Shown: in pieces, positions 10,276-12,364 of the stretch
Position numbering within the stretch: the first letter of the stretch is position 1
Layout: each line of letters begins with the position of its first letter
NCBI GenBank assembly: GCA_028693275.1
Contig: JAQUVS010000005.1
Span: 2,656-50,018 of the forward strand
From: Bacilli bacterium
GTDB taxonomy: Bacteria; Bacillota_I; Bacilli_A; RF39; UBA660
Reading direction: 5' to 3'
Length of the DNA: 47,363 nt
Notes under the pieces: model-generated
Told to the model about the DNA's origin: nothing
The model's input: only the letters and a program-made list of their open reading frames with translations
Database searches by the model: none
Program-made: the position numbers and the translations under genes

Positions 10276-10289
10276 AAAAAAAGCAATTG
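10276..10289 (+). terminator. Left arm of putative pyrG terminator, separated from right arm (11571-11586) by the IS
   Basis: AAAAAAAGCAATTG; counterpart CAATTGCTTTTATTTT at 11571-11586. Confidence 0.55.
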
Positions 10290-10340
10290 TTTAATGATGT
10301 GAACCCCAAATGGTAGACATCAATAAAAAAGTATTATATT

Positions 10341-10368
10341 AAAAAGAGAAAATTATTTTTCTCTTTTT
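10341..10368. terminator. Bidirectional terminator overlapping the OrfB 3' end
   Basis: AAAAAGAGAAAA-TTAT-TTTTCTCTTTTT perfect 12-bp stem. Confidence 0.7.
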
Positions 10369-11144
10369 GTATAAATTTTTCTATTATTTTTAACCTTTGA
10401 CTTTAATCTAGCCGTATTGTAGAATAATATCCATTCTTCTACAAGTTGAATATATTCTTGTAAAGATGTAATATTATTGTTGTACAAAGTTTCTTTCTTA
10501 AGTATAGCATGCCAACTTTCAATTGGGGAATCGTCAATTGGTGTGCCTTTTCGAGACATGGAAATAGTTATTCCATTTGATTCACAAATAGCTTTGTACT
10601 CATAAGATGTATATTGGAAACCTTGGTCACTATGTATGATCAATCCATTTACATCTTTTTCTTTTGATAAGGCTTCATTTAAAGTATCTATAACTAATTT
10701 ATTGTCATTGAATTTAGATATTTTATAAGCAATTACATGTCTATCAAATAAATCTATAATAGTTGATAAATAAGCACAAGCTCCTTTAAATATTAAATAT
10801 GTAACATCCGTATCCCATACTTTATTAAATGCATCTGTTTTGAAATTTCTATTTAATAAGTTTGGTTTTACGTTATTTTCAATTCTTTTGTTTTTATGTT
10901 TAATCTTTGCCTTCTTTATATACTCTGGTTGTATATTGTATTTTTTCATTATTCTTAATACCTTCTTCCCATTCATAATTACACCATATTTTTGAATTAG
11001 GCCATCAACAATCCTGCGATATCCATATGTGCCTTTAGAATCATTAAATATTTCTTTTACTATTAAATAATCATAATAATCCGGGTCTTCCTTATGTCTA
11101 TATTTATAATAAGTTTTGGGGCTTATATCTAATACTGCACACAT
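10353..11144 (-). CDS. IS3-family transposase OrfB (DDE integrase core); coding region extends upstream of the ATG by -1 frameshift from OrfA
   Basis: DDE residues in WDTDVTYL, IHSDQGFQY, PIDDSPIESWHAILKKE; no internal stop. Confidence 0.94.
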   Translation of the reverse strand: MCAVLDISPKTYYKYRHKEDPDYYDYLIVKEIFNDSKGTYGYRRIVDGLIQKYGVIMNGKKVLRIMKKYNIQPEYIKKAKIKHKNKRIENNVKPNLLNRNFKTDAFNKVWDTDVTYLIFKGACAYLSTIIDLFDRHVIAYKISKFNDNKLVIDTLNEALSKEKDVNGLIIHSDQGFQYTSYEYKAICESNGITISMSRKGTPIDDSPIESWHAILKKETLYNNNITSLQEYIQLVEEWILFYNTARLKSKVKNNRKIYTKREK

Positions 11145-11185
11145 GTTTAAAAGTTTGAAATTTTCTCTATATAAATTAATAAACG

Positions 11186-11479
11186 TTACTTTCTCTCTCG
11201 TTGTGCCTTGAGGAAGGCCTGGTATTTTTTTAGTATTTCATATCTTTCTTTATAATCTTCTTTTGTCAAATCTTTTTCCCTAGGTCTCCCATGTTTTTTA
11301 TCTAGCCCTGGATATTTTTCAGGATGCCTTAATTTTTGCTGCCAAGTAGAAATTGTTTTAGCATTCACATTATATTCTCTTGATAACTCTGTATATGTTT
11401 TCCCTTTGGATAATTCATTAATAATCAATTCTTTAATTTTTTTTGAGTACTTATTAAATTTTTGCCCTTTCGAAGCCAT
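11186..11479 (-). CDS. IS3-family transposase OrfA (HTH)
   Basis: 97 aa with HTH region ELSREYNVNAKTISTWQQKL; immediately upstream of OrfB. Confidence 0.9.
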   Translation of the reverse strand: MASKGQKFNKYSKKIKELIINELSKGKTYTELSREYNVNAKTISTWQQKLRHPEKYPGLDKKHGRPREKDLTKEDYKERYEILKKYQAFLKAQRERK

Positions 11480-11482
11480 AAA

Positions 11483-11511
11483 AATACACCTCCTTTCGGA
11501 AGTGTATTATA
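11483..11511 (-). promoter_or_regulatory. Extended -10 promoter overlapping an SD-sequestering hairpin of the IS transposase
   Basis: Minus strand TGATATAATACACTTCCGAAAGGAGGTGTATTTTTATG: TGnTATAAT plus stem AATACACTTCC-GAAA-GGAGGTGTATT. Confidence 0.7.
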
Positions 11512-11579
11512 TCACTTTTATTTGAAATGCTTTTTTATTAACGTCTACTCACAAGGGTGCATTTCATAATCAATTGCTT

Positions 11580-12182
11580 TTATTTTACAAGTCCACTTAT
11601 AAAATCTTGATAATTAGTATTTATATCCTTTAAAAAATCTTCATTATAACTTATTGAAAAATACATATTTCCTATCTTACATACAGCTACATATTTAACT
11701 ACATTAATTGAATTAGGTGAATAACTATCAAGATAATCAAATGATTCTTCATATATTTTAAACTCATAACTACTAATGTTAATTGTATCTTTTAAATTAA
11801 TATTGAAATATGAATATTTACTTATATCAAAAGATGTATCATTCTTTTCTATGAAGTTCTTAAGATTTAAATCAAAAGTCAAATCACTATATGAAATACT
11901 AGCAGTTGATATTTTAGATAATAAATAAGCCATTTGCTTGTTTGTAGGATTAGTAGATAAAGTTGTTTCTTTAGGCACTTTATAAGTACCTAACTTAACA
12001 TCATCTTCTTTATAAATAGTAAACATAATAGAACTATTATATTTATCTTCAATCAAATTAGTCTTTTCATTTTTATTTGTAAGAGCATAACTAATATTTG
12101 TTTTTAAGTATAGCCCTGTTCCTAATATAGAAAAAGATAAACCCAAAAAGAAAATAGCTAATATATATAATTTTTTCTTCAT
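11580..12182 (-). CDS. Hypothetical membrane-anchored protein (start 12182 preferred)
   Basis: MKKKLYILAIFFLGLSFSILGTGLYL signal/anchor; GGAGGG RBS before ATG. Confidence 0.75.
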   Translation of the reverse strand: MKKKLYILAIFFLGLSFSILGTGLYLKTNISYALTNKNEKTNLIEDKYNSSIMFTIYKEDDVKLGTYKVPKETTLSTNPTNKQMAYLLSKISTASISYSDLTFDLNLKNFIEKNDTSFDISKYSYFNINLKDTINISSYEFKIYEESFDYLDSYSPNSINVVKYVAVCKIGNMYFSISYNEDFLKDINTNYQDFISGLVK

Positions 12183-12364
12183 AGTATCCCTCCATATTCT
12201 ATAAATAAGATTATAGTTTTTGACTGGTATATATGTCAATTGAATTGTAAAATATAAATGTAAACTGTGTAAATTAATACCTATATATAAAAAGACAATT
12301 ATAGTTTTAATATTCTTAAAAATATGATATATTATATAAAGGAATTAAGAAATGAGGAAAGAAA

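Follow-up and report, generated by a model that had tools for sequence, protein, structure and literature searches.

An IS3-family element within a split host terminator

The window, by which we mean the whole 47,363-nucleotide stretch of DNA analysed here, carries an insertion sequence assigned to the IS3 family (IS150-like) by its tips, target duplication and transposase matches (PF00665/NF033516). It is the only full copy of the element in this genome. The features of the locus, read along the minus strand, are as follows.

11580..12239, minus strand: host gene, secreted or lipoprotein-like, with no Pfam match; its transcription enters the orfA end of the element
11571..11580: one arm of the split host terminator, CAATTGCTTT, from the fold of the joined flanks
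11567..11569: target duplication TTA, left copy (minus-strand reading)
10295..11566, minus strand: insertion sequence, 1272 bp, with tips TGAAATGCACCC (left, at 11566) and TGATGTGAACCCC (right, at 10295)
11506..11514, minus strand: extended −10 TGATATAAT, the element's own predicted promoter; the −10 itself is 11511..11506
11498..11508, minus strand: 5′ arm of the leader hairpin, AATACACTTCC, a mimic of the anti-Shine-Dalgarno (anti-SD) sequence; its opening AAT doubles as the last three bases of the −10
11494..11497, minus strand: loop GAAA; the start predicted from the −10 falls at about 11497-11499
11483..11493, minus strand: 3′ arm GGAGGTGTATT, with the SD GGAGG (11493-11489)
11480..11485, minus strand: U-rich, terminator-like tail between SD and start codon (D-score 17.9)
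11186..11479, minus strand: OrfA, 97 aa, HTH (PF13518/PF01527)
11225..11231, minus strand: A7 slippery run, candidate −1 frameshift site from OrfA to OrfB
10353..11144, minus strand: OrfB, DDE integrase core (PF00665; NF033516, E=3e-74); its open frame extends upstream to the frameshift
10341..10368: right-end hairpin with A- and T-tracts, a possible bidirectional terminator; hairpin and T tail are present in relatives
10292..10294: target duplication, right copy
10280..10289: other arm of the split host intrinsic terminator, AAAGCAATTG, from the fold of the joined flanks

The gene order is that of the IS3 family, with an HTH-bearing OrfA preceding a DDE/rve OrfB, and the inverted repeats (TGAAATGC / TGATGTGAA) start with TG, end with CA and are flanked by a TTA duplication, within the family's 3-5 bp. 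Among the three E. coli references compared, OrfB is 34.7% identical to IS150 InsK, 28.5% to IS3 InsF and 21%, over 135 aa, to InsD. The −1 frame is open at the A7 run, consistent with a frameshift there. Inspection by eye for a junction promoter across joined ends showed nothing resembling a −10 at the usual spacing within the left tip.

Scanning one genome for each species yielded 80 relatives, down to ~43% OrfA identity. The right-end hairpin varies in sequence among them, and elements of ~1.5 kb (L014, L019, L033, L046, L048) carry a larger, different one (TCAAGGG...CCCTTGA). In L016, L031 and L038, the left tip TGAACTGC recurs inverted, as GCAGTTCA or a similar sequence, ~35 nt into the element.

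In the window, the insertion has landed in the loop of a bidirectional intrinsic terminator that lies between convergent genes. When the element and one copy of the duplication are taken out and the flanks are joined, the terminator hairpin is restored, AAAAGCAATTG-ATTAAA-CAATTGCTTTT. Nearly all relatives with both ends present (L009-L083) are likewise inserted in a host terminator loop, with duplications of 3-5 bp, and in 22/27 own flanks score above the 95th percentile obtained with swapped flanks. The orfA-side gene reads into the element in 24/28 callable cases, with genes called by simple open frames. Comparison of the relatives thus shows insertion in terminators together with a neighbour that, as judged from its orientation, would read in. 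Since the insertion point is the loop of the host terminator, host transcription would usually enter it, and, with that terminator disrupted, read-through would be a standing threat. We infer that the element breaks host terminators, receives the resulting read-through and supplies substitutes.

A hairpin overlapping the promoter and the SD

The minus strand from 11514 to 11477 reads TGATATAAT-ACACTTCC-GAAA-GGAGGTGTATT-TTT-ATG, and GGAGG lies 9 nt from the ATG of OrfA (11479). The sequence and its predicted fold bear out the preliminary description of an 11-bp stem with one G-U pair, a GAAA loop and a 3′ arm that takes in the complete GGAGG of OrfA; the AAT common to arm and −10 confirms its statement that the 5′ arm begins inside the −10. 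The fold of the leader reaches −21.9 kcal/mol, compared with −9.7 ± 2.4 kcal/mol for shuffled sequences (z = −5.0; 0/200 shuffles as good), and the SD is hidden in 68/70 distinct leaders of relatives but not in ordinary genes, so that the hairpin is not a chance structure. The TGn extension of the −10 is found in 60/68 leaders. A search of Rfam with the hairpin gave no match to a known RNA family up to E=1.

The stretch GAAAGGAGGUG (11487-11497) is an unusually long SD, matching the Bacillus-type 16S rRNA 3′ tail over its full length. The 5′ arm, in turn, resembles the anti-SD itself. Because GAAAGGAGGUG is also a long SD match, the GAAA loop, although present as first described, need not have been selected as a GNRA tetraloop.

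Nearly all of the relatives retain the stem, among them some whose arms have changed, as in AATACTATCTC/GAGGTAGTATT (L009) and AAACTATCTTC/GGAGATAGTTT (L049). The 5′ and 3′ regions of one leader pair at −14.3 kcal/mol, compared with −10.8 ± 0.37 kcal/mol when permuted among relatives (0/20000 as good). In a MAFFT alignment of 40 leaders, both-side changes occupy 14 cells, compared with 3.4 ± 1.4 after shuffling (0/500), and pair counting in 40 leaders places all slid registers far below the true one. Loss of the stem among related copies would have counted against the preliminary description; the stem is instead conserved, with compensatory changes. Kinship alone can lift related sequences above such shuffles without any structure, for which reason the strongest evidence for pairing is the change of layout.

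We distinguish at least three layouts. In that of the window, the 5′ arm overlaps the −10, and the 3′ arm starts 13 nt beyond the last base of the −10 in almost every relative so arranged. In a second, for which 19 leaders were compared, the loop holds the −10 and the 5′ arm is entirely upstream, for instance AACACCTCTTATGG-TATAATGG-TACCATAGGAGGTGTT (L075). MAFFT misregistered the alignment of this group, and covariation was therefore assessed by permuting arms: own arms score −18.5, compared with −13.1 ± 0.74 when permuted (0/20000 as good). In the third, the inverted-repeat tip, or a sequence close to it, serves as the 5′ arm (L082, L106, L145, L175-L179); L106 and L145 show long-range pairing between tip and SD. 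On an OrfA tree resting on few columns, the layout labels require at least 5 changes. Constant across at least three layouts are the membership of the SD in the 3′ arm and the position of the 5′ arm, which lies mostly or wholly ahead of the predicted start. Sequence comparison thus shows the hairpin, selection on its pairing, a fixed relation to −10 and SD, and other layouts.

A covariance model built from 40 leaders finds the element's own copy as the sole confident match in the window and in the genome (the runners-up have E = 0.33 and 0.35). Across 296 genomes of the class it gives 18 matches; each one inspected is an IS3 start or a decayed copy, and the remainder fall at contig ends. Among decayed or truncated copies (L060, L191, L192, L193), some without a transposase still keep the hairpin.

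Long SD-hiding hairpins across a −10-like sequence also occur in plasmid-borne IS3-family elements of Klebsiella, Staphylococcus, Enterococcus, Priestia and Listeria. In a wider survey of the IS3 family, the automatic starts are unsure at several loci, and the survey serves only as support. Some other IS3-family elements (L163, L164, L169, L172) have no clear stem of this kind, and E. coli IS150 lacks an SD-sequestering hairpin. In the E. coli IS3 and IS2 leaders (L181 2230-2292, L182 1261-1352), the SD region is paired in the fold.

Predicted fates of read-through and own-promoter RNA

For read-through RNA, the median predicted probability that the SD is unpaired is 0.001 across 70 distinct OrfA leaders, compared with 0.45 for 43 ordinary genes taken from the window and from related contigs. 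For RNA from the element's own promoter, the median exposure is 0.20-0.47 with starts 5-9 nt past the −10, and 0.37-0.47, near the level of ordinary genes, with starts 7-9 nt past it. A start 7 nt past the −10 of the window is position 11499, so own-promoter RNA would retain at most ~2 nt of the 5′ arm. In the window and some relatives, the exposure predicted for this transcript is only moderate (0.2-0.4). Prediction and covariation together indicate that start signals are paired in read-through RNA, the arrangement of IS10 and IS50.

These data suggest, with a probability of roughly 80%, that the hairpin discriminates between transcripts by their origin and so shields the element from outside activation. 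RNA from the upstream host gene would carry both arms, fold and hide the OrfA SD; it would probably often terminate at the U-tract as well, giving no transposase. Transcripts initiated at the element's own extended −10 would begin within the loop or at the 3′ arm, without the 5′ arm, leaving the long SD exposed. Use of this −10, a start site placed from the consensus −10, translational silencing and its division with termination are the predicted parts of the scheme. The IS10/IS50-like protection from impinging transcription proposed in the preliminary description thus gains support from the conserved stem, from compensatory changes and from a topology shared by several layouts.

The hairpin could instead be mainly an intrinsic terminator that halts incoming RNA polymerase before OrfA, with SD pairing a by-product of packing and the element's own RNA escaping for want of the 5′ arm. 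The hairpin has features of a terminator: a GC-containing stem is followed by a U-tract, the SD-ATG spacer is 75% T (39% in controls), and T-runs of at least 4 occur in this spacer in 90% of leaders, compared with 7% of control genes. By the D-score, the classical d'Aubenton Carafa formula, 58/68 leaders score above 0, with a mean of 10.3, higher than the host target-site terminators (mean 2.3; 19/27 above 0). This property and the disrupted host terminator around the element both go beyond the preliminary description. Moreover, a genomic scan by Naville and Gautheret (2010) predicted 5′ terminators upstream of transposases, with IS3, IS2, IS600, IS1329 and IS407A among the families named (PMC2965389). 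However, the short U-tract pairs in part with the A's of the −10, the SD lies in the 3′ arm in all layouts although terminators do not need that, and the tip-SD pairing of L106 and L145 forms no compact terminator. We consider a role mainly in termination improbable, if the best placed of the alternatives; termination probably acts alongside SD sequestration in read-through RNA. Both would rest on one discrimination between transcripts, and sequence analysis cannot separate them.

Palindromes around a −10 are typical of operators, and OrfA has an HTH, so the inverted repeat might be a DNA operator recognised by OrfA or by a repressor from the host. Yet its centre and spacing vary by layout while the membership of the SD is constant, and the U-tract would be left unexplained. 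The mismatches also point elsewhere: with registers picked blind to mismatch type, those in the SD are G-U in 42 cases, A-C in 1 and other in 1, and those outside it G-U in 10, A-C in 2 and other in 18. Part of the bias in the SD is expected, since ribosome binding holds its G's, but a double-stranded site would show no preference for G-U over A-C, and the comparison favours wobble tolerance, which fits RNA rather than an operator. We regard an operator as very unlikely. Equally unlikely is a 5′ mRNA stability element, or chance complementarity of the kind that a 5′ arm like the 16S tail would have to any SD, since the pairing extends past the SD and covaries there, and a stem missing from the element's own transcript could not stabilise it.

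Comparison with known safeguards of insertion sequences

Taking transcript discrimination as the preferred reading, the closest parallel is IS10/Tn10, in which, according to work attributed to Davis, Simons and Kleckner in 1985, read-through RNA reportedly folds and leaves the transposase untranslated while own-promoter RNA escapes. The mechanism predicted here is alike in that read-through RNA would be folded against transposase translation and own-promoter RNA spared; it differs in that IS10 belongs to the IS4 family, whereas the present hairpin includes the −10, runs into a U-tract and has an arm that comes in several layouts. In IS50/Tn5, work ascribed to Schulz and Reznikoff in 1991 is said to have found start signals hidden in read-through RNA only, as is predicted here, although its transposase is unrelated in family and sequence.

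Protection from external promoters is known for IS10 (cited in PMC2965389), IS50 (cited in PMC13305171) and IS200 (PMC3196728). The IS200 leader likewise combines termination of incoming transcripts with hiding of the ribosome-binding site, but uses a separate structure for each (PMC3196728; Beuzon 1999, cited in PMC2965389), whereas here one hairpin may do both and spare the element's own transcript. The terminators of Naville and Gautheret resemble ours in lying at the 5′ ends of insertion sequences, IS3-related ones included; SD sequestration and a nested promoter are absent from their description in the portion consulted (PMC2965389). IS1397 and ISKpn1, also of the IS3 family, insert in REP palindromes (PMC1525189); palindromes are targeted in both cases, the targets here being the loops of intrinsic terminators. 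In the open-access literature, to which our search extended, we found no description of such a hairpin for IS3-family elements beyond predicted terminators.

Compared with the known safeguards, what appears new is that the promoter is nested, that there are multiple layouts and that terminator loops are targeted. A broader proposal, which we put forward tentatively and at slightly less than even odds, is that an IS3-family group widespread in Firmicutes and Mollicutes shares a single RNA switch, in at least three layouts, whose promoter is nested in a terminator and anti-SD hairpin and which is coupled to insertion in host intrinsic terminators, such that the element would replace the terminator it destroys and stay silent to the read-through it provokes. 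If true, this would show how a very common family of insertion sequences tolerates life at the ends of transcribed genes, with the preference for terminator loops offered as a reason for needing a safeguard. It would also exemplify a compact logic for telling self from foreign transcripts, a promoter inside its own silencer, and since several layouts occur naturally, reporter assays could test the mechanism directly.
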